This document shows, one piece after another, positions 13,548 to 39,779 of a DNA stretch of 39,779 nucleotides (position 1 is its first letter; each line of letters opens with the position of its first letter). A program made the translations under genes and the position numbers. Below the pieces are notes generated by a model, which was not told where the DNA came from, did no database searches, and saw only the letters and a program-made list of their open reading frames with translations. Origin of the DNA: a virus. The DNA lies in the IMG/VR virus record IMGVR_UViG_3300044732_000574, positions 1-39,779 of that record, one strand, 5' to 3'.

Positions 13548-15932
13548 CTATGCGAATGCATAGTGAGACTTAGAGGTATTTCGTAGGTCTAGCGATCCTC
13601 GTTTGGGAGGAGGTAGAACCTTCGATCTCTTGTTCTCTGGCAATGCTGCAAGAACTCTGTTGTGCAAATCTTGGAGTGGGTCCCAGTTCTCATAAAGTTC
13701 CACGAATGTATCCTTTACGATAGCGGAGAATTGCTCCATGTCGGACGGTAGGCAACTGAACGAATCGTGAATCAATAGGAATTGGTGTATTCCAGATTCT
13801 TTCGCTGTCAGTGCTGCCATCTGCAAGTGAGTTGCATCACAACTGTGTACAAAGTTCGGAGACATAGATGTTCTTTGTTTACTTGGAACTAACTTATCCG
13901 TATAACCATAAACAAATCGATTGCGAATGCGTCTACCTTTTACAGTGACATTCAACTGAGTTTCCTTCACCTTATAGTAGGCATTGTAGACTGGGAACGA
14001 CAACGGTGTGAACCATGTGATAGGAAGATTCTCCTTCGCCATAATTCCTGCCAAATGCTGTAACCAATCCATAACTTCCATAGGTTTAGGAGCAATCTGT
14101 CTCAATACAGTGTCCAAGTGGTTTGCTAGATAGACTGCAGATTTAATTGGATTCTCGAATTTGTGCTTCTTCTCAGAAATCACATCCGACATCAATTGCT
14201 CTGCCCATCCAAACAATTCCATCTTGTTCGTACTGTTAGACTTTGTGACACCACCCTTACGGGAGCCATAGCAAATTGTCATAGTTGAACGTTTGGTCGT
14301 CTTTCGAGTGATACCAAAGTCCAACCATTCAGTTGCTAGTTTCTGCGTAGCCTCATCCGCATTCTTCAGATCATCCTTTAGAATTTCTATGAGGATTTCT
14401 GCGGCATCACGGTAAACGTCCTCTGGTTGTTCGCCAGGAATGAGGTTCACTCGTTTGCCTGTGGTATCATCTCGGAGCATAGCACTGAAGTGCTGTAATC
14501 CAGAGTTACTACCATCGATTGCAACTGGCAGATGACATATGTAAGAGGAACCTTGAAGTTGCCACTTACGATATTCAATGCATGCTGCTGCAAACAAGAA
14601 TGGCTCAGATGCACCATCTTTACCATCTTCCCCATAGAACCACTCAGGATCTGCAAATGGATCTGCACCGAACGCCATGATTCTGTCATGGTTATCGTCG
14701 ACCCACTTGACTCGATTCTCGAATGATGCTTTGGAAATCTTATCGAAGTCACCAGTGTTAGCTAGGTGAATCTTCAACCAATCTCCAGCTTCTTTAGTTT
14801 CAATGGACTTGCCATCTGCGAACATCCAAAGCGATTTCATCCAATCTGCTGCTTGATGATTTAGCGATGGGATCGCGTAGACTCGACCACGGAAATCCAA
14901 GAATGCTGGTAGGAACATGCGTTCCTCGTTGGTCATAGACCGAGCTTCAGTCAAATCTGACAGGAATGTTGCCTGTAACGACTTGTACTGATAGCCTTCT
15001 TTCTTGCTTAGTCCCTGTGGTAGGGAGCTCGGTGGAATCTTTCTGAACTTTCTCACATGCTCACCCTTGTCAGTTACCGAGAGATGATTAATCTCATAGG
15101 CACGTCTAATGATGTGAACTAGTTCAGTGTTGATCTTGAGTGGAACGCTTTGAATAGCATTCACAGCATCAACCCACCGAGCACCCAAGACAGCAGACTC
15201 GCGTACCACTGCTTTGTGATCACGGTTCCAAGTCTTCACCAATCGCACTTTAGATGCGACACGTTCATCGTAGTAACTACCTTCGAGAATCGACTTTGGT
15301 TCAGACAACATTGGAGAGAACACAGGTTTAGATATACGTTGATTGTCATAGATATCGTCCATGTGTTTCAGTGCACTATCAGTTAGTACTACTCTTGTGG
15401 CTTCATTGCTTATACCACCAGCGTTCTCAGATCTAATGATCACAAACGCAGGATCCGACATAGCGCATACAGTTTCAATCAGGTTCGAACCGAGCACTAA
15501 TGCTCTGCGTTTGAATTCGAGTTGATCTGTAGGTTTGTCTTCAATTTGATCATAGCACATAACTCCAATTTTACTTGCGAGTGCTGTGTATGAAGATTTA
15601 TCACTAGTCCCTCCTCGAGACTTGTGCTCACCTGTTGTGTTAGAACTTCCCTTGCCCATGTTGAATAGGACTTGGTATGCGAAGATAACGCAAGGTGCCG
15701 CACCAATCTTCTGTGCGTCTAACTGCCAATCCATCATAGGACGGTGTGGCTGGTTAGTTGTAATTACTTCTTCGAAGGCACTAATAGTGTCACCTGTCAG
15801 GTCCTTCATAAAACTAAATTCTGGTGCTGTCATTCGACCAGATGCTTGAGCAGATACAAACTTACGATCATATCTATCTACACCTTTATCGAACATGCCA
15901 GATTCATGGAACTTTTCTAAATGTTCGTTCAT
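13548..15932 (-). CDS. single-subunit DNA-dependent RNA polymerase (T7 RNAP family)
   Basis: 794 residues (T7: 883). Landmarks: DFRGRVYAIPS; motif A VAIDGSNSGLQHFSAMLRDD near residue 480; motif B RKTTKRSTMTICYGSRKGG near 575 (R, K, Y and G at T7 spacing); motif C LIHDSFSCLPSD near 720; C-terminus HYAFA, like the FAFA foot of T7 RNAP. Start at 15932 chosen because GAGG lies eight bases upstream; the frame stays open to 15956. It would transcribe from the 16-base elements described here. The mRNA leader starts at hammerhead 5's cleavage site. All catalytic residues are present. Confidence 0.97.
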   Translation of the reverse strand: MNEHLEKFHESGMFDKGVDRYDRKFVSAQASGRMTAPEFSFMKDLTGDTISAFEEVITTNQPHRPMMDWQLDAQKIGAAPCVIFAYQVLFNMGKGSSNTTGEHKSRGGTSDKSSYTALASKIGVMCYDQIEDKPTDQLEFKRRALVLGSNLIETVCAMSDPAFVIIRSENAGGISNEATRVVLTDSALKHMDDIYDNQRISKPVFSPMLSEPKSILEGSYYDERVASKVRLVKTWNRDHKAVVRESAVLGARWVDAVNAIQSVPLKINTELVHIIRRAYEINHLSVTDKGEHVRKFRKIPPSSLPQGLSKKEGYQYKSLQATFLSDLTEARSMTNEERMFLPAFLDFRGRVYAIPSLNHQAADWMKSLWMFADGKSIETKEAGDWLKIHLANTGDFDKISKASFENRVKWVDDNHDRIMAFGADPFADPEWFYGEDGKDGASEPFLFAAACIEYRKWQLQGSSYICHLPVAIDGSNSGLQHFSAMLRDDTTGKRVNLIPGEQPEDVYRDAAEILIEILKDDLKNADEATQKLATEWLDFGITRKTTKRSTMTICYGSRKGGVTKSNSTNKMELFGWAEQLMSDVISEKKHKFENPIKSAVYLANHLDTVLRQIAPKPMEVMDWLQHLAGIMAKENLPITWFTPLSFPVYNAYYKVKETQLNVTVKGRRIRNRFVYGYTDKLVPSKQRTSMSPNFVHSCDATHLQMAALTAKESGIHQFLLIHDSFSCLPSDMEQFSAIVKDTFVELYENWDPLQDLHNRVLAALPENKRSKVLPPPKRGSLDLRNTSKSHYAFA

Positions 15933-15962
15933 TTCTGTTCCTCGTATAAATAACACATCATT

Positions 15963-18326: not shown

Positions 18327-18376
18327 GTCTAAGACCTCTCCCGAGGTTTCGTCCAATTAGGACTCATCAGTTAGAC
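18327..18376 (-). ncRNA. type I hammerhead ribozyme 6 (minimal)
   Basis: A compact 50-base copy: stem I GTCTAA/TTAGAC, CTGATGA, stem II GTCC/GGAC, GAAA, stem III CCTC/GAGG with a GGGA tetraloop, GUC. Cut between 18333 and 18332. The upstream gene ends QSN-stop, where the stop TGA is part of the CTGATGA core itself. Followed by the TATGAAAGGAG leader shared with other copies. Confidence 0.92.
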
Positions 18377-31541: not shown

Positions 31542-33428
31542 ATGAATAAATTAAAGAGTATCCTCGATACTATCGTTGAAAAATACACTGTTGGTCAACT
31601 TAGAGACCGAACTGGAAAGTTTGCCGAGACAGGTGCTGGTAACGGTGGTGGAGGTGGCTCAGGTGGTAAAGGTGGAGGTGGTGGTGGTGGAGGTGGTGTA
31701 GACTACCCATATCAAACCACTGCCACGGTGAAACGCATGACAGTTGATCAGTTTGGTAAGGATGCTGGAAAGAGCACTCACAACAAACAAGCAAGACAAA
31801 TAGTTATCGGTGCTATCAACGGTTCAAGTGGTGGCGGTTCTTCCCTTTCCTCTGTTTATGCCAGTGTCTCTCATGCTACAGGAATCCCTCAGAGCAGAGC
31901 ACTCGCAGATGCCGTAAATTCTCATCTAAAAAACATGGATAGAGATGGTCAAATTAAAGTCAATCGCGAAACAACGATCATGCGACACGGCTCTGACGCT
32001 GGTGTCAAGGTTGGCAAGGTAAAGTGGGAACGCAATGCTGATGGCGACTGGCAGGTTTCTCAGATGGAAACATTTAGAATCAGTGTCATTGATAAAAAGT
32101 TGGCAGCTACAGGCTCCAACATTAAGTCTCCTCACACACTAGGTCCTAGAGCCGCACGTTTCGATCCAAAAGTTGGTGGTCAAGCTGACGAAGCTCTAGC
32201 ATTTAGACGTAAAGAATACTCTGACACTAGGCTTGCTCCTCAAGGTCGCTATCACAGTTCAGACAGAAGTGCGCCAGAAATGATGTATGGTGACACACGA
32301 GCTGAGCTCCTTGAAAAGGGAAAGATTACTCCCAAAGAAGCTGCTGGAAAAGTTGGAGAGCCAGTAGGTGGTGATAAAAATGGAGTTGGTGGTAAGTATA
32401 TTCGTAAAGAAGCATTTACCGATCGTAAGATAGACTTCTATGACGCAACCTCTTCAGTTACTGCGCACATTGGTGTGATGACTGGTGATAGAAAGTCTCT
32501 TGAGATGTCTAAGTTACTTCCTTCTAAAGGTCTTCCTGCACATCATACACTGGCTACTAAAAGACTCGGTGTTTCTGAAAGTAAGAGTGGAAGTCCATAC
32601 TTTAGTGTGTTGTCTGGGTCTAAAGGATCTTTAACGGATGCCGATTTCAAAGGTTTCGACGAAAAGAAAGCCAGCATCAAAGAAATTGCTAAATCTATTT
32701 GGACACCTGGCTCCTACGGCTCTGCTCCAAATATGGCTGGCTATTCTAGCATGGGTGTGAAAGTTACTGAAGGTCTTGTAAAAGGTGGAATGAAACCAGA
32801 ACTAGCCAAACAGACTGCACAGAAGATGTTAAACAATTTTAAAGAAACCTCACTAGCAAAGTTTTCTAAAGGTTTCACGAAGATTATCGGAGAGGCTCCA
32901 GAGAATTTTGTGTATGAGAACCCAATGTCTGGGTATCGGATGTCTTTTAACAAGCACAACACCGAGAAAGTTTATTTAACTCTTGGAACTAATAGAAGAT
33001 CCAGTGGATCGTCCTCTTCTCAAAACGAGGCAGTAAAGTTACGTGCGGATGTGCCAACTACAACGAACTCTAGAAAGACACGATCAGGTGCTGCGGCTCT
33101 GTTTGTTCAAAACTGGGATTCTGCAGTTATGTCTGATTTGATGCTGAAGCAGAGATCACCATATACCGTTCACGATGCTATAGGTGTCAAGAAGAGTATG
33201 GTTGGAAGATTGAATGCCAACGTCGCAAAGTCCATGATGACAGCTCAGAAGTATAAACCTCTAGAAGACTTGTCGAATCAAATTATGAAGCAACACGAAA
33301 AGAATGGTGCAAGTCCTACATTCCTAGCAAAAACTAGAAAGGATTTAGACTTGGCAATCCAACAGATTAGAAAGTCAGATGAGCAGTTCACATTCTCAGC
33401 TCAGAATAATCATTTCGCACTAGAATAA
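31542..33428 (+). CDS. second single-subunit RNA polymerase-like protein with Gly-rich and winged-helix N-terminus
   Basis: 628 residues. N-terminus: RDRTGKFAETG (21-31), a long polyglycine linker (31-52), and a winged-helix-like segment (about 84-145). The C-terminal half has T7-RNAP motifs at near-T7 spacing: DTR then QGRYHSSDR (228-242; DxRGR-like), motif A YDATSSVTAH (D301, H309), motif B KEIAKSIWTPGSYGS (K380, K384, Y392, G393, matching RxxxKxxxxxxxYG), FVQNWDSAV (521), motif C VHDAIGV (H544, D545). D301 to Y392 is 91 residues and Y392 to D545 is 153 (102 and 173 in T7). Position is where a portal gene is expected. It may be a virion-carried or late polymerase, or a degenerate relative. 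GAGGAG precedes the ATG. Confidence 0.6.
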   Translation: MNKLKSILDTIVEKYTVGQLRDRTGKFAETGAGNGGGGGSGGKGGGGGGGGGVDYPYQTTATVKRMTVDQFGKDAGKSTHNKQARQIVIGAINGSSGGGSSLSSVYASVSHATGIPQSRALADAVNSHLKNMDRDGQIKVNRETTIMRHGSDAGVKVGKVKWERNADGDWQVSQMETFRISVIDKKLAATGSNIKSPHTLGPRAARFDPKVGGQADEALAFRRKEYSDTRLAPQGRYHSSDRSAPEMMYGDTRAELLEKGKITPKEAAGKVGEPVGGDKNGVGGKYIRKEAFTDRKIDFYDATSSVTAHIGVMTGDRKSLEMSKLLPSKGLPAHHTLATKRLGVSESKSGSPYFSVLSGSKGSLTDADFKGFDEKKASIKEIAKSIWTPGSYGSAPNMAGYSSMGVKVTEGLVKGGMKPELAKQTAQKMLNNFKETSLAKFSKGFTKIIGEAPENFVYENPMSGYRMSFNKHNTEKVYLTLGTNRRSSGSSSSQNEAVKLRADVPTTTNSRKTRSGAAALFVQNWDSAVMSDLMLKQRSPYTVHDAIGVKKSMVGRLNANVAKSMMTAQKYKPLEDLSNQIMKQHEKNGASPTFLAKTRKDLDLAIQQIRKSDEQFTFSAQNNHFALE

Positions 33429-33437
33429 GGAATTAAC

Positions 33438-35099
33438 ATGAATGTTCAATCATACTCTACATTGGAGTTCAATTTAAAGGATGCTGCTGATTCAATCATT
33501 GAAGAAGCCACAGCCAACGAACAGATGTCAAATGCTGGGTATGATCTTGGAGATGAACAGATTGCTGTGTTTGAGATCCGACAACTGGATGACGAGACTT
33601 ATTATTTTAAAGAGTCTTTGTATGATGGTGACATTGTATATGTAGATGACGACACTGAAGGCGAGTATGACTACTTCACAATGGTGGAGTATATTACAGC
33701 TCGCTTACAGATTTTAGATCAAGTTACCGATTATCCACGCATGCCAGAGTCTAAGAAATCTGCTATTGAGAAAGCTTTGGCTCTCGTCGGTATAGAGAAG
33801 TACAGAGCATCTCAACGTAGAGATCGATCTGGCAAGTTCGGCGAAGAAGGTCTTGGTGGTCCTGGTGCTGGTGGCGGTCGAGGACGAGGTGGTGCTTCTG
33901 GAGGAACTCCAACTGGCACTCTCAGAGTTTCTGGATCTGGTCTGACGGTGGGACCATCTGGAAGAAGTTCTAGATATATCCGCACAGGTGCTGGCGCTAA
34001 ACCTGCGACTGCTGCTAAGCCTACTGCTGCCAAACCTTCTTCTAAGCCTGCTGCTAGCACTAAACCTACAAAACCATCTTCAACTTCAGGTGTCGGTGCT
34101 GCTTTCTCGAGAGATAAGGACAGTCAAAGAGACATTAAGATAGATGATAGTAAACTCAGAGCTGCTGGTGGTAAGAACAGAGATGCGGATAGAAAAACAG
34201 TTTTGGATGTATACGCAGCGAGAGTTAAGAATTTTGATCCATCCTACACCATAGGTGCCGACGGTGGCGCTGTCTATGGTAAGGGTCCAAAAATACTTGC
34301 AGCAAAACCTGCTGGTTGGCCAGCCAACACTCCTTACAATCCTCGTAAGATGACAAATAAAGAAGGTGACTGGAAAACGCAATATCCAGCAACCTTCTCA
34401 AAGAAAGACACGTTGGATTGGATGAACCAAGGCGACGAAGGTGCTCGTAAAGCCCAAGTTGCTATTGCGGAAATCTACGAATTTGCTCGGAGAAGGCAAG
34501 GAAACGGACTTAATAATTCGGATTACAGCATCAAAGAGAATTCTCTAGGAACTACTCCTAAGAGTGTGAACAGATTCCTCGAGAAGGCAAAACTTGCTGG
34601 GTTTGATGTCGATATCCATCACATGATTCCTGCGTCTATGGGAGGTTCCAATCTAGGTCCCAATCTTGTGGCTCTAACACCAAAAGAGCATGCTATGGTT
34701 CACTCGTTAGAGTGGTCTGCTGCTAGGGTCTATAAGAAAGATGGTTCAGTAGCAAAACAAGGTAAATGGGGTGGCACACAGGCGACATTTGAAGCTACAG
34801 GTGCGAACATTAAGGCTAACAACATTTATCGTGCTGTTACACAACAAACAACTGCTGCAACACGTTCTGGTAATGTTAAAGCGTATTATAAAACTCTAAA
34901 TAGCACACCATCTCGTAAACAAGCAGCATTTGCCGCACAAAAAGCTGCTAATGAACTGTACAGGATGAAATTACTTCCAACTAACAAGTTAGAAGACTTA
35001 AAGCTGGACAAGGAAGGGAAACCTCTCTGGTCTAATGCCAAATCTAAGAATGAGTTAATCACAAAACTTGAGAATAATATAGTGAAAGAGACTACATAA
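33438..35099 (+). CDS. modular protein with C-terminal HNH nuclease domain
   Basis: 553 residues. Residues 1-120 form an acidic, helical domain; 127-140 carry RRDRSGKFGEEGLG, the same tag as in the preceding protein; 140-220 are Gly-, Ala-, Pro- and Lys-rich linker with AKP/SKP repeats; 230-380 is a mixed domain; 392-425 has the HNH signature DIHHMIPASMGGSNLG, NLVALTPKEHAMVH; then a basic helical tail. This layout (tag, linker, toxin-like nuclease) resembles polymorphic-toxin or injected virion nucleases. It could cut host DNA at entry or act in packaging. Confidence 0.75.
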   Translation: MNVQSYSTLEFNLKDAADSIIEEATANEQMSNAGYDLGDEQIAVFEIRQLDDETYYFKESLYDGDIVYVDDDTEGEYDYFTMVEYITARLQILDQVTDYPRMPESKKSAIEKALALVGIEKYRASQRRDRSGKFGEEGLGGPGAGGGRGRGGASGGTPTGTLRVSGSGLTVGPSGRSSRYIRTGAGAKPATAAKPTAAKPSSKPAASTKPTKPSSTSGVGAAFSRDKDSQRDIKIDDSKLRAAGGKNRDADRKTVLDVYAARVKNFDPSYTIGADGGAVYGKGPKILAAKPAGWPANTPYNPRKMTNKEGDWKTQYPATFSKKDTLDWMNQGDEGARKAQVAIAEIYEFARRRQGNGLNNSDYSIKENSLGTTPKSVNRFLEKAKLAGFDVDIHHMIPASMGGSNLGPNLVALTPKEHAMVHSLEWSAARVYKKDGSVAKQGKWGGTQATFEATGANIKANNIYRAVTQQTTAATRSGNVKAYYKTLNSTPSRKQAAFAAQKAANELYRMKLLPTNKLEDLKLDKEGKPLWSNAKSKNELITKLENNIVKETT

Positions 35100-35313: not shown

Positions 35314-36768
35314 GTGGCAGTATTTGAAATTTTAGCTGAGAAATCAGCAAACGACCAACGAACATTCTTTTACGATAACATGACAAACGTGTTGACTGAC
35401 GAGACTGGCGTTTTGTATGCGTTTCCAGATAAACGTGCAGACAATTCTGAACCTGCCACGATATTCAGCAAAGAGATCCCATTGAAGAAGTCCAAAGAAA
35501 TTGGATTTCTAAAGATTCAGTTAGGTCTCGGTTGTAATTACTCTTGTGATTACTGCTCTCAAAAGTTTGTTGAGCGAGCTGATTCCACATCTCCAAAGGA
35601 TATCGCTGACTTCATGGCAAAGTTGGACAAGTTAGATATCAATGAGGCAAAGGGTCTGAAGGTAGAATTCTGGGGTGGCGAACCACTCGTCTACTGGAAG
35701 ACTCTGAAACCACTCGCCGAAGCAATTCGCGAGAAGTACAAACACTGGGAGCGAAAACCAGCGTTCGCTATGATCACCAACGGTTCCATCCTCACAGATG
35801 ACATGATCGATTGGCTCATGATGATGGACTTTGCAGTTTCTATCTCACATGATGGTCCTGGTCAAGCTGTTCGTGGTCCAGACCCATTCGACGATCCTGA
35901 GACAAAGAAACGTTTACTCGGTTTCTATCGTATGATGACTCGTCTAAACAAGAATATTAGTTTCAACTCTATGTTGTCTGCTAAGAATAAGAGTCGCAAA
36001 GAAATCTCAGACTGGTTCCGAGAGTTGACAGGCGATCCTAACATCTCGCTAGGCGAAGGTGGTATTGTAGATGCTTACGACGAAGATGGTATTACTAACT
36101 CTCTGATCACTAAACAAGATCACTTTGAGTTTCGTCGTTTAGCTTTCTCGGATATCTTCACTACCGACGGTGACATTGCTTTCAAGATGCAGTTGAATAA
36201 GATCAACAGCTTTACTACTGATGTATTGGCTCAGAAGCATGCGTCAACTCTTCCACAGAAATGTGGTATGGATCAAGACGATGTTCTTGCTGTCGATCTT
36301 CACGGTAATGTGATCACCTGTCAGAACGTCTCTGCTGTAGAGACATCCAAGAACGGTGAATCTCACCTAGCTGGAACATTAGACGCATACGATGATGTGT
36401 CGATCACTACATCAGCACATTGGTCTACTCGTGAAGAGTGTCCTAAGTGCCCAGTGCTCCATCTCTGTAAAGGTGCGTGTATGTTCTTGGACAATAAGTT
36501 CTGGAAGATCTCGTGCGCCAACGCTTACTCAGATAACGTAGCACTATTCGCATTGTCATTTGTAAAGATGACTGGATACATTCCTATCCACATTAAAAAT
36601 GATGACTTACCTTTGGAACGTCAAGATGTATTTGGTACGTTGTTTGAGCACAAAGAAGAGTCCGTTCGTAAAGTTATCCCTATTAAAATTGTGAATCATA
36701 TCACAGAAGTAGTTGATAACGTTCCTATCTACTCTAAATCGGAGGTCGCCTATGACAATCCAATCTAG
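35314..36768 (+). CDS. radical SAM/SPASM maturase
   Basis: 484 residues, GTG start after AGGAG. The radical SAM cluster motif is GCNYSCDYC (C74, C78, C81), with GLKVEFWGGEPL (the GGE that positions SAM) near 105 and AMITNGSIL near 145. The C-terminal SPASM region has CGMDQDDVLAVD, HGNVITCQN and CPKCPVLHLCKGAC for two auxiliary iron-sulfur clusters, as in anSME and peptide-modifying maturases. Substrate is likely a peptide or protein; the Cys-rich protein translated in overlap with it (17 bases) is the prime candidate. Confidence 0.92.
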   Translation: MAVFEILAEKSANDQRTFFYDNMTNVLTDETGVLYAFPDKRADNSEPATIFSKEIPLKKSKEIGFLKIQLGLGCNYSCDYCSQKFVERADSTSPKDIADFMAKLDKLDINEAKGLKVEFWGGEPLVYWKTLKPLAEAIREKYKHWERKPAFAMITNGSILTDDMIDWLMMMDFAVSISHDGPGQAVRGPDPFDDPETKKRLLGFYRMMTRLNKNISFNSMLSAKNKSRKEISDWFRELTGDPNISLGEGGIVDAYDEDGITNSLITKQDHFEFRRLAFSDIFTTDGDIAFKMQLNKINSFTTDVLAQKHASTLPQKCGMDQDDVLAVDLHGNVITCQNVSAVETSKNGESHLAGTLDAYDDVSITTSAHWSTREECPKCPVLHLCKGACMFLDNKFWKISCANAYSDNVALFALSFVKMTGYIPIHIKNDDLPLERQDVFGTLFEHKEESVRKVIPIKIVNHITEVVDNVPIYSKSEVAYDNPI

Positions 36769-37651
36769 TGGGCCAATTGCTTTCAGTAATGTCAGCACCG
36801 AAATAGGACAGGCTCCGACTTATACAACATCACTTAGCTTCTTGAACAGCCAGGTTAAGCCTGCTGTTCGACCAGCTATTCCAAATATGTCAGTGTTTTA
36901 TGGCATGAGTTATTTCCAAAACACAACTGAAGGTAACTGCGCAAACGGCAACTGTACTGCAGACTGTAACTGCGGTAATATTCAATGTACCAACTGCGTT
37001 ATTACTGGTGGCGTCGATTGTGTAAACTGTGACCCACAACCGTACTTACAACTAGGTTCTAACTGCGCTTGTACCTACAACTGTACATCAGGTGAAACAT
37101 CATACAATTGTAACTGCGCATGTAACTGCTCTAAGATTATCTGCTCTAAACTCTACGACATCGGTGCGATGGCTCCTGCAATCTTTGCAGCAGACCAAGC
37201 CTACGGTAAGTGGTTGTTCAAGAACGACAAGGTAGTCTATCGTGGCTACATCCGTTGGGCACGCATTGTTACTGCTTGGATGGACGGCAAAGGTCCAGAC
37301 TTTATGTTCTGGATTCGGGACAAAGAGAAACGTGTAGAAGCTCAGAAAGAACTGACTCGCAAGATGGCTACCAAGATGGGTATTCCATGGGCAGAGCATA
37401 TGGCTTTCAAGATGGGCGCATTACGTGAAGACAATCTCCACGGTAAAGTTCTCATGTCGATCGGTGTTCCTATCTGTAGATTCCTAGACAAGTTACCTCG
37501 CGTACGTGAGCGTGATCGTCGCCACCGTTTGCCAGTTCTCTTGGCAATGTGGGCAGCATTCTACGGTAGCCATTGGACTGCGTCTGCTGTTGTCCGTGCC
37601 AATAACGTTGTAAGTAAAGTTTCTACCATGCTAAAGAGAGCGGTGGTATAA
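36752..37651 (+). CDS. Cys-rich Asn-Cys-repeat protein, putative virion protein and radical SAM substrate
   Basis: 299 residues, start fixed by GGAGG. Residues 1-55 (SGPIAFSNVSTEIGQ, then MSVFYGMSYF) match a domain I recall at the N-terminus of phage structural proteins. Residues 60-131 contain 16 Cys, ten of them in Asn-Cys pairs. Residues 134-299 are a helical basic domain (LYDIGAMAPAIFAADQAYGK, RGYIRWARIVTAWMDG) also known from marine phage structural proteins. The gene lies inside the 3' end of the maturase gene and is followed by oxygenases, so the Cys/Asn segment is probably modified (thioether formation, Asn hydroxylation) on a tail or head decoration. Confidence 0.7.
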   Translation: MTIQSSGPIAFSNVSTEIGQAPTYTTSLSFLNSQVKPAVRPAIPNMSVFYGMSYFQNTTEGNCANGNCTADCNCGNIQCTNCVITGGVDCVNCDPQPYLQLGSNCACTYNCTSGETSYNCNCACNCSKIICSKLYDIGAMAPAIFAADQAYGKWLFKNDKVVYRGYIRWARIVTAWMDGKGPDFMFWIRDKEKRVEAQKELTRKMATKMGIPWAEHMAFKMGALREDNLHGKVLMSIGVPICRFLDKLPRVRERDRRHRLPVLLAMWAAFYGSHWTASAVVRANNVVSKVSTMLKRAVV

Positions 37652-37652
37652 C

Positions 37653-38315
37653 ATGGAACGATCTAACTGGTGGTTGAGCCCAGTTTGGGAGTACCAGTCT
37701 CCATTCGATGCCGAGTTCAATAAAGCACTTCTGCAAGAGGTGTACGAGATTGGACAAGGCATTTCTAAGCATGGTACATACGGTAAATTAAGTTTATGGG
37801 ACTACGACAAACCACACCTAAACACTTTAAAAGAATATATCCTTGCTAAGTGCTATCAAGCAGTCTGTGGAGACATCTCTGAAGTGAATGAGCTTAATCT
37901 CAAAATGGATTTTGCAGGCGGTTGGATTAATGTCAAAGGTCCTGGCGAAGGTATCGAAGCTCACGCTCATAACGACTGTTCATTAACCGCAACTTATTAT
38001 GTACAAGCTGAAGAGACAAGTGGCGACATAGTGTTTATGTTACAGGGAGATCAGATCAACTCTGATGGCTCTTTTATCAACAATGACTATTCAACTTTAC
38101 CACATAAGCATATAACTCCAGTTGCTGGTAAGTTGGTAATATTTCCTGCATATATTATACACGAAGTTCAGAGTAATCGTTCAGATTCCCTTCGCATCTC
38201 TATTTCAACGGATTTACATCAAATAGTTGATAAAGATGCACCCAACGCTATGATTATCAAAAGCTGGTGTGATAGCATGCTAAGACTAAAAAATGTTTGT
38301 GAACCGAAAGGATAA
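37653..38315 (+). CDS. 2OG-Fe(II) oxygenase A
   Basis: 220 residues. Beta-helix core with EAHAHNDCSLTATYYV (H106-x-D108), a glycine turn, then KLVIFPAYIIHEVQ (H170) and RSDSLRISISTD (R181 or R176 for 2-oxoglutarate). The pattern matches the putative 2OG oxygenases of phage structural clusters. Starts one base after the Cys-rich gene's stop, so the two are made together. Probable protein hydroxylase; substrate inferred to be the Cys/Asn-rich segment. Confidence 0.83.
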   Translation: MERSNWWLSPVWEYQSPFDAEFNKALLQEVYEIGQGISKHGTYGKLSLWDYDKPHLNTLKEYILAKCYQAVCGDISEVNELNLKMDFAGGWINVKGPGEGIEAHAHNDCSLTATYYVQAEETSGDIVFMLQGDQINSDGSFINNDYSTLPHKHITPVAGKLVIFPAYIIHEVQSNRSDSLRISISTDLHQIVDKDAPNAMIIKSWCDSMLRLKNVCEPKG

Positions 38316-38320
38316 AAATT

Positions 38321-38725
38321 ATGAATACTGTATTTAGGGTTGGTTCTAAACCACCTGCAAACTTTAATGTTACAGATTATAACAACAACATCAAGTACTT
38401 TCTTGATAGTGAAGTAGCAGCCACATTCACGACTTTGACTCAAGCTGAGTTGGATAGTTTCTTTGAGATGGCTCAGAAATATCACGCAGTATTTGCTAAA
38501 GTATATTTATTGCCAGGCGATCCTCTGATTAATTATATCGTATATGGTAATGAATTCTACGACGCATTGAAGGATCCACATGAAGGCATCGACTACACTC
38601 CAAGTTGGGTTGTAGCCAAGTACAAAGAGTGGGCAGCGAAGAAAGGTCTTCCAGTTCCTAAGGATATGGTTGCAGCCGAAGGCATCAGCACTAAACCTAT
38701 GGTGGACTTTCAGAGCAAGCTATGA
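38321..38725 (+). CDS. hypothetical protein, 134 aa
   Basis: Starts MNTVFRVGSKPPANFNVTDY. No Cys. A mixed alpha-beta N-terminus, a central IVYGNEFYDALKDPHEGIDY and a helical Lys/Glu-rich end. Sits between two oxygenase genes with an ATGA overlap downstream. It could be a peptide-recognition or accessory component of the modification cassette, or a virion protein. Not recognised. Confidence 0.72.
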   Translation: MNTVFRVGSKPPANFNVTDYNNNIKYFLDSEVAATFTTLTQAELDSFFEMAQKYHAVFAKVYLLPGDPLINYIVYGNEFYDALKDPHEGIDYTPSWVVAKYKEWAAKKGLPVPKDMVAAEGISTKPMVDFQSKL

Positions 38726-39282
38726 ACCCCTACTTCACGAAGCTAGATAGTATCAGTCCAAGTTTATACAAGGACTTCAAGAATCTAGGTGAGCAGCATA
38801 GTTGTGGTGGAGGTTGGACTAAATACTACAAGACGGATCTGAGCAGGAACATTCTCCTTCCAAATCACTTGAAGAATTATTTCAACCTGTCTTATATGAC
38901 ATTTATTGGCGACAGTGCGTCTCCACACGTTGACATGGGCATTGGTTGTCGAATTAATCTTTACCTTTCTGAGAACAATGCTACTACGCAGTTCTTCTCT
39001 GTGAAAGCTAGAGAATTGGACAAGCCAAAGCCTGTGACATGTGAAGGCTGTACACCAGAGCGTTTCTGTGCTGGCGATTGTGCCTGTGGAATGAAGGTGG
39101 AGAATCTAGTTCTAGAAGATCAGTTTGTGGCGAAGCGCCATGACATATATCTTTTGAATGTCTCTAAACCACACGGTGTAGAGGGAATTTCTAGAGAAAA
39201 CTACAGACAAGCACTGTCCTTTACTACAGATCTTCCATATGAAACTGTATACCAATCATTGAAAGAGTATGGTTCATTCTAA
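38722..39282 (+). CDS. 2OG-Fe(II) oxygenase B, aspartyl/asparaginyl hydroxylase-like, with Cys insert
   Basis: 186 residues. Metal triad H69-x-D71 in SASPHVDMG, H151 in SKPHGVEG, and R162 in YRQALSF, the geometry of aspartyl/asparaginyl beta-hydroxylases. It has an unusual insert CEGCTPERFCAGDCACG (C107-C122, five Cys) between the metal motifs, which may bind zinc or mimic the Cys-rich substrate. Asn hydroxylation would suit the Asn-Cys repeats. Confidence 0.78.
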   Translation: MNPYFTKLDSISPSLYKDFKNLGEQHSCGGGWTKYYKTDLSRNILLPNHLKNYFNLSYMTFIGDSASPHVDMGIGCRINLYLSENNATTQFFSVKARELDKPKPVTCEGCTPERFCAGDCACGMKVENLVLEDQFVAKRHDIYLLNVSKPHGVEGISRENYRQALSFTTDLPYETVYQSLKEYGSF

Positions 39283-39779
39283 TGTTTAAGAAACTTGCTG
39301 TTGACACCATCATAGACTTTAATGTTCATGACAAGCGCATAGAATTTGATCTCAACGAAGAAGGAAAGAAGATACAATATTTTAATGTTTCTTCTCCTTA
39401 CTTAGATGATTTGATCTCGTCGTTTGGTTCTTATAGTAAACACTTTCACACGTCTTTCGTTATGATAGGAGCAGATGTTCCTCCTCACACAGACATTGTT
39501 GATAGTGTAAATATAAATTTTTATGTAGATGCTGGAAACTTCACAACAAACTTTTACAACAGTAAAGACAACAGCCATAGATCAACATATGCTGATCACG
39601 GTGATGGACATGTCTATAAGATTGATGAATTGGAAAAGTTAGGATCTTTTATAGCTCAAACTGGAGATGTGTACATTCTAAACGGTAAAGTTATTCACGG
39701 AGTTAGTTCTCCTGTGGGTTCCAAGTCCATTAGAAAAGTTCTTCAAGTTTCTTCTAATGATTTAGAGTATGAGAAAGTT
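39282..39779 (+). CDS. 2OG-Fe(II) oxygenase C, partial
   Basis: First 166 residues; cut by the right edge but with the complete core. H69-x-D71 in PPHTDIVD, H139 in NGKVIHGVSS, R151 in SIRKVLQVSS. Same spacing as oxygenase B, so the two are likely tandem duplicates that diverged. TAATG overlap on oxygenase B's stop. Lacks the Cys insert. Confidence 0.78.
   Translation, partial: MFKKLAVDTIIDFNVHDKRIEFDLNEEGKKIQYFNVSSPYLDDLISSFGSYSKHFHTSFVMIGADVPPHTDIVDSVNINFYVDAGNFTTNFYNSKDNSHRSTYADHGDGHVYKIDELEKLGSFIAQTGDVYILNGKVIHGVSSPVGSKSIRKVLQVSSNDLEYEKV

Follow-up and report, generated by a model that had tools for sequence, protein, structure and literature searches.

An Asn-Cys stretch of tail-fibre-like phage proteins accompanied by a radical SAM-SPASM enzyme and putative oxygenases

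Results

Anatomy of the cassette

The IMG/VR record IMGVR_UViG_3300044732_000574, 39,779 bases long and referred to here in its full length as the window, carries on its + strand, from the terminase onwards, a cassette of neighbouring open reading frames (ORFs) that overlap or are separated by gaps of a few bases (Table 1). These encode a radical SAM-SPASM enzyme, a protein containing a stretch built of Asn-Cys (NC) pairs, a 134-aa protein, and three established or putative oxygenases of the 2-oxoglutarate (2OG) type. About 50 viral contigs hold much the same set. To judge from sequence comparisons, the NC stretch and the radical SAM enzyme are linked almost without exception, and the linkage turns up again in phages of unrelated kinds. 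We consider it quite probable that these genes form a dedicated maturation cassette, in which the radical SAM enzyme and the oxygenases modify the Asn-Cys stretch of a phage tail-fibre protein.

Table 1. Features of the cassette, in window coordinates.
Feature	Position	Strand	Description
Radical SAM-SPASM enzyme	35314..36768	+	GTG start, 484 aa; PHROG 1802 family; CX3CX2C and seven-Cys SPASM set
GGAGG ribosome-binding site of the NC protein	36741..36745	+	Inside the end of the radical SAM gene; from sequence
Asn-Cys (NC) protein	36752..37651	+	299 aa; proposed substrate, tail-fibre-like
Asn-Cys region, residues 58-127	36923..37132	+	15 Cys in 70 residues
C-terminal all-helical domain (SKIICxKL...) of the NC protein	37130..37651	+	From structure model and homologue search
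2OG-Fe(II) oxygenase, PF13759/TIGR02466	37653..38315	+	220 aa; profile matches
134-aa protein	38321..38725	+	Inside the unit, absent from the initial annotation; occurrence comparison
Oxygenase-like protein 2	38722..39282	+	186 aa; invariant HxD...H...R, double-stranded beta-helix model
Oxygenase-like protein 3, paralogue of protein 2	39282..39779	+	Cut by the contig end

The assignment of the first gene to the radical SAM-SPASM enzymes, made in an initial annotation of this DNA, is borne out by profile matches that place the protein in the radical SAM superfamily (PF04055, 36.8 bits against a cut-off of 29.5) and among SPASM proteins (TIGR04085, 31.8 bits against 27). Across an alignment of 17 members (A2), the Cys residues of CX3CX2C are invariant, as are CX13GX4C, CX2CX5CX3C and the final Cys of the SPASM domain. 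The 17 aligned members, the window protein among them, all fall under every NCBIfam equivalog cut-off. Their best-matching family model is that of the ranthipeptide maturase PapB (NF047865), which all 17 match below its cut-off. The best E-value belongs to the window's enzyme, which at 81.2 bits against a cut-off of 340 lies outside the equivalog. Recognised relatives include solved structures of anaerobic sulfatase-maturating enzymes (anSME) and the family TIGR03942.

The NC protein likely starts at the ATG at 36752, behind the GGAGG site, with a 17-nt overlap with the end of the radical SAM gene. It has 17 Cys in total, 16 of them through residue 131, and ten NC pairs, in agreement with the initial description of a protein with 16 Cys and ten Asn-Cys pairs that is started inside the end of the maturase gene. 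In the structure model its N-terminal part is ordered, and the unmodified Asn-Cys region is predicted to be disordered (predicted local distance difference test, pLDDT, <50 for residues 58-93 and 103-128). A fold search with the protein matched only phage proteins without described function. The Asn-Cys region itself is far beyond chance occurrence, because it is kept in about 50 contigs, with the radical SAM gene adjoining in every one, and because its Cys and Asn columns are the best conserved (0.86 and 0.83, compared with 0.64 for the rest of the region and 0.62 for the flanking domains). The spacing of residues indicates that the Asn-Cys pair is the unit, since among the proteins of the motif scan described below Asn occupies position -1 of 75% of all Cys and of 76% of isolated Cys. 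An NxxC spacing was rejected as the recognition unit, only 16% of isolated Cys having Asn at -3.

Of the three 2OG-type oxygenases initially proposed, the first belongs to its family by profile (PF13759, 62.3 bits against a Pfam cut-off of 27; TIGR02466, 69.2 bits, likewise exceeding its cut-off); the residue at the second iron-ligand position varies across the family alignment (A6). The other two proteins have no Pfam match but are oxygenase-like by motif and fold. Their family (n = 40) has invariant H69, D71, H151 and R162, and a structure model (pLDDT 87) adopts a double-stranded beta-helix fold, with OkaE and cupins as top fold matches (template modelling score ~0.4). They fit 2OG/cupin-fold oxygenases on these grounds, and such an activity would be expected of them. 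Two of the oxygenases had also been likened to Asp/Asn hydroxylases. Membership of the Asp/Asn beta-hydroxylase family PF05118 was rejected for oxygenases 2 and 3, which gave no profile match to it and nothing useful in a PDB sequence search. A real PF05118 member lies past the point at which the window stops: in the nearest relatives the cassette continues into a desaturase-like gene and a gene of the PF05118 family (41.2 bits against a cut-off of 22.6 in L031:4525-5307), an order seen after oxygenase 3 in relative L006.

The desaturase-like gene, of membrane type (L006:10942-11652; L071:4532-5251, with PF00487 in the latter), follows oxygenase 3 in some relatives and separates the radical SAM and NC genes in others. 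The comparison that follows does not support it as a core part of the cassette, since none of the 43 NC loci has it.

Linkage of the Asn-Cys stretch to the enzymes

The C-terminal domain of the NC protein offers a natural experiment. Searched alone in viral contigs, with Cys disregarded, it yielded 80 loci and one known phage; one locus cut by the contig start was counted apart from the 43 with an NC-rich linker and the 37 with a Gly-rich or other linker. The radical SAM enzyme accompanied the domain at 43/43 of the former and 0/37 of the latter (53 sequence clusters, 24 NC and 29 non-NC). No non-NC locus held the PF13759 enzyme, oxygenases 2/3 or the PF05118 family, which were present at 40, 38 and 39 of the 43 NC loci, respectively. 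On the domain tree the NC state changes about four times (an estimate of three to four), three of them on well-supported branches, and the radical SAM gene changes each time too. In the Synechococcus phage SynMITS9220M01 (L002:6669-8519), a long poly-Pro stretch and a run of Arg stand ahead of the domain in place of Asn-Cys, and the fetched locus holds no radical SAM gene. The initial annotation had proposed a search for the same gene order in other phages and would have given up its reading had no conserved linkage been found; the linkage is conserved. Because the radical SAM gene, the NC stretch and the oxygenase genes are gained and lost together, the pattern points to a dedicated, apparently undescribed chemical finishing of a phage fibre. 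The gene for the 134-aa protein behaves differently, occurring at 40/43 NC loci and 9/37 non-NC loci. It was rejected as part of the chemistry and, since it also stands beside Gly-linker homologues, its distribution marks it as a partner of the fibre's C-terminal domain.

A scan of IMG/VR for the pattern NCNCxCNC, made without regard to homology, gave the same association. Among the matches listed (at least 120 loci), the radical SAM family, counted at 200 bits or more anywhere in the record, inside or outside the locus, occurred with 48 of 60 real ORFs, defined as ORFs of at least 100 aa containing the motif, and with 2 of 60 chance frames (Fisher 3e-19); among the 12 exceptions, several come from truncated contigs or show a weaker radical SAM match. 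Most of the proteins finish in the NC run, for example NCNCNCDCYC or NCNCACNCNC. In the reverse direction, the A2 alignment searched against bacterial genomes found 80 radical SAM relatives, many in Limnohabitans, Polynucleobacter, Burkholderia and Rhodobacteraceae, the names of metagenome-assembled genomes being unreliable as host assignments. For the 63 relatives with at least 3.2 kb of upstream DNA, to which the count was limited, a same-strand ORF with an NC run lay within the searched stretch in 53, and the same expression matched 1 of 7208 control ORFs farther away. PF13759-like genes in bacterial genomes were confined to an interval reaching 2 kb upstream and 1 kb downstream of the radical SAM gene (25/40 well-covered loci).

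What kinds of protein carry the run? In relatives, NC runs occur in tail-gene neighbourhoods, on collagen-repeat proteins, proteins matching tail-fibre PHROGs, and S74- and Hint-domain proteins, of about 100 to more than 700 aa (up to 709 aa). The run is either terminal, on collagen-like or other tail fibres, or placed ahead of Hint or S74 domains, both of which are self-cleaving. Unrelated carriers could be counted only within limits, since repeats link tail fibres into chains; they fall into two large and five small groups. In the known-phage library a close radical SAM enzyme was found in the cultured Achromobacter phages JWF and 2-1 only, where NCNCDCNC(NC)SC is followed by a Hint domain in a protein encoded two genes ahead of the radical SAM gene; the JWF enzyme was deposited as an anaerobic sulfatase-maturating enzyme.

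Some further arrangements were seen at the edges of these searches. Cys-Gln-repeat proteins (CQxCQ...) ending in NCNCDCNCNC or similar (L105:2386-2784, L143:214-600, L205:9360-10013) adjoin more distant radical SAM genes (117-123 bits) and possibly represent another substrate class. Small proteins with a CNCNCNC run at the end (L120:11426-11671 and L133:2435-2635; 67-82 aa from stop to stop) occur at loci with two to four distant radical SAM genes each. At siphophage-type loci (95 loci; for example L300:9132-9974 and L237:8547-9413), a conserved protein lies between the NC fibre and the radical SAM gene, one member having a weak bacterial immunoglobulin-like match at its C-terminus.

Other features of the window

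A hammerhead ribozyme type I match lies at 18327-18376 on the - strand (36.2 bits against a gathering score of 34). A 628-aa protein behind the terminase (31542-33428) has a match to the final 114 positions of PHROG 414, a phage RNA polymerase family that includes the RNA polymerase of the window itself (13548-15956). A 553-aa protein (33438-35099) has a weak HNH/homing-endonuclease match over residues 389-424.

Discussion

We propose the following model for the cassette. A tail fibre, presumably part of the virion, would bear a stretch with the Asn-Cys pair as its repeat unit. The radical SAM-SPASM enzyme would abstract a hydrogen within this stretch and link a Cys sulphur to a carbon of a neighbouring residue, likeliest Asn, so that a flexible linker or tip rich in Cys would become a rigid covalent element resistant to redox change. 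We lean towards such thioether formation as the likeliest reaction of the enzyme, because of the matches to the PapB model and the SPASM precedent for Cys-Asn and Cys-Asp beta-thioethers. The PF13759 enzyme, the HxD...H...R pair and, in relatives, the Asp/Asn beta-hydroxylase may hydroxylate the same region; that Asn or Asp would be the hydroxylated residue is fairly likely. In proteins with a Hint or S74 domain behind the NC run, that domain would cut itself off and leave the run as the mature C-terminus. More broadly, we are inclined to regard the cassette as one instance of a widespread viral system with no known counterpart, in which diverse phages use a dedicated radical SAM enzyme, often together with up to four oxygenases, to crosslink and hydroxylate poly(Asn-Cys) at or near the ends of their fibres.

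Could the enzyme perform a different reaction on the same stretch? Anaerobic sulfatase maturases convert Cys to formylglycine, and the radical SAM enzyme might likewise oxidise Cys or else epimerise Asn, giving a reactive or beta-helical tip on which the oxygenases also act. The anSME structures and TIGR03942 among the enzyme's relatives, together with the deposited name of the JWF enzyme, would suit such a reaction. However, the best match is to PapB, a thioether maturase, and the NC region has no CxPxR motif; moreover, Cys oxidation alone would leave unexplained why Asn is conserved as strongly as Cys in the unit. We therefore regard this alternative as unlikely. Less probable still is a stretch that mainly binds metal or forms disulphides, with the enzymes serving another substrate of the same phages. 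Many Cys within a short region could bind metal, and phage tail tips with metal sites are known, but homologous fibres lose the NC stretch together with all these enzymes, and no other gene was found to track the enzymes across loci. That a small molecule or a product resembling a ribosomally synthesized and post-translationally modified peptide (RiPP) is built on the stretch and then released from the fibre as carrier is scarcely credible: a radical SAM-SPASM enzyme with 2OG enzymes does resemble natural-product maturation, but tail-fibre proteins encoded amid tail genes bear the NC runs at their ends, and no peptidase or exporter was recognised among the conserved neighbour clusters, none having been sought by profile.

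Several observations weigh against enzymatic finishing of a tail fibre as we propose it. The known Cys-Asn link is of the NxxC type, with Asn at -1 here. For the window's own NC protein, family-match searches, including those with tail-fibre families, gave none, and the initial view of the substrate as a phage structural protein draws its support from the collagen-like, tail-fibre PHROG, S74 and Hint contexts of relatives. For ten of the 63 bacterial radical SAM relatives, mostly lower-scoring ones, the search turned up no neighbouring NC protein. Nor are the oxygenases universal: a PF13759 gene occurs at 138/218 radical SAM loci, and JWF, 2-1 and many other NC loci are without one in the fetched DNA. 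Finally, the compared loci share ancestry and are not phylogenetically independent, and the independent-pairs test, taken by itself, covers only 3 pairs (p 0.25).

If the model of fibre maturation is correct, phages build part of their tail fibres by a radical chemistry whose known examples are so far mainly natural-product peptides, along with a few enzymes. Many hypothetical genes of freshwater phages, and of Burkholderiales and Alphaproteobacteria prophages, would then have an explanation, and protein stapling would gain self-contained enzyme-substrate pairs. Tail-fibre function would become testable through removal of a single enzyme, and the pairing is present in two cultured phages, JWF and 2-1.

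How does the cassette compare with known systems? In the open-access papers searched we found no description of a radical SAM-linked Asn-Cys stretch on tail fibres, of PF05118 linked to a radical SAM enzyme and an NC protein, or of the system as a whole. Radical SAM cassettes in the host-recognition region were noted in a pelagiphage study that linked no substrate to them (PMC7029224). The short RiPP precursor with leader and core is not what is seen here, the proposed substrate being of 299 aa and, in relatives, a fibre of up to 709 aa. The closest parallels are the PapB-type maturases (NF047865) and NxxcB/NxxcA, likewise a radical SAM-SPASM enzyme adjoining a Cys-rich substrate; SPASM enzymes form Cys-Asn and Cys-Asp beta-thioethers in NxxcA and freyrasin (PMC8326336). 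Unlike those systems, the present enzymes reach at most 81 bits against the PapB cut-off of 340, the repeat unit is Asn-Cys rather than CX3D or NxxC, and the proposed substrate is a phage fibre (about 100 to over 700 aa) and not a small precursor peptide. The CteB/SCIFF maturase (TIGR03974; PDB 5wgg) and the anaerobic sulfatase maturase (4k36-4k39) are, by sequence, the nearest solved relatives besides 8vpo, but the radical SAM enzyme is far under their family cut-offs and they have other substrates. As for the Asp/Asn beta-hydroxylases, PF05118 has its genuine member in the relatives' cassette, outside the window. QhpD (TIGR03906), the maturase of quinohemoprotein amine dehydrogenase, is a radical SAM-SPASM enzyme that makes thioethers on a protein subunit, and all 17 aligned enzymes match its model weakly (72.7 bits here against a cut-off of 453). 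Genes for an amine dehydrogenase were not noticed in the present case, and the context is that of the phage tail, whose familiar fibres with collagen-like, S74 or Hint domains carry the NC run in relatives.

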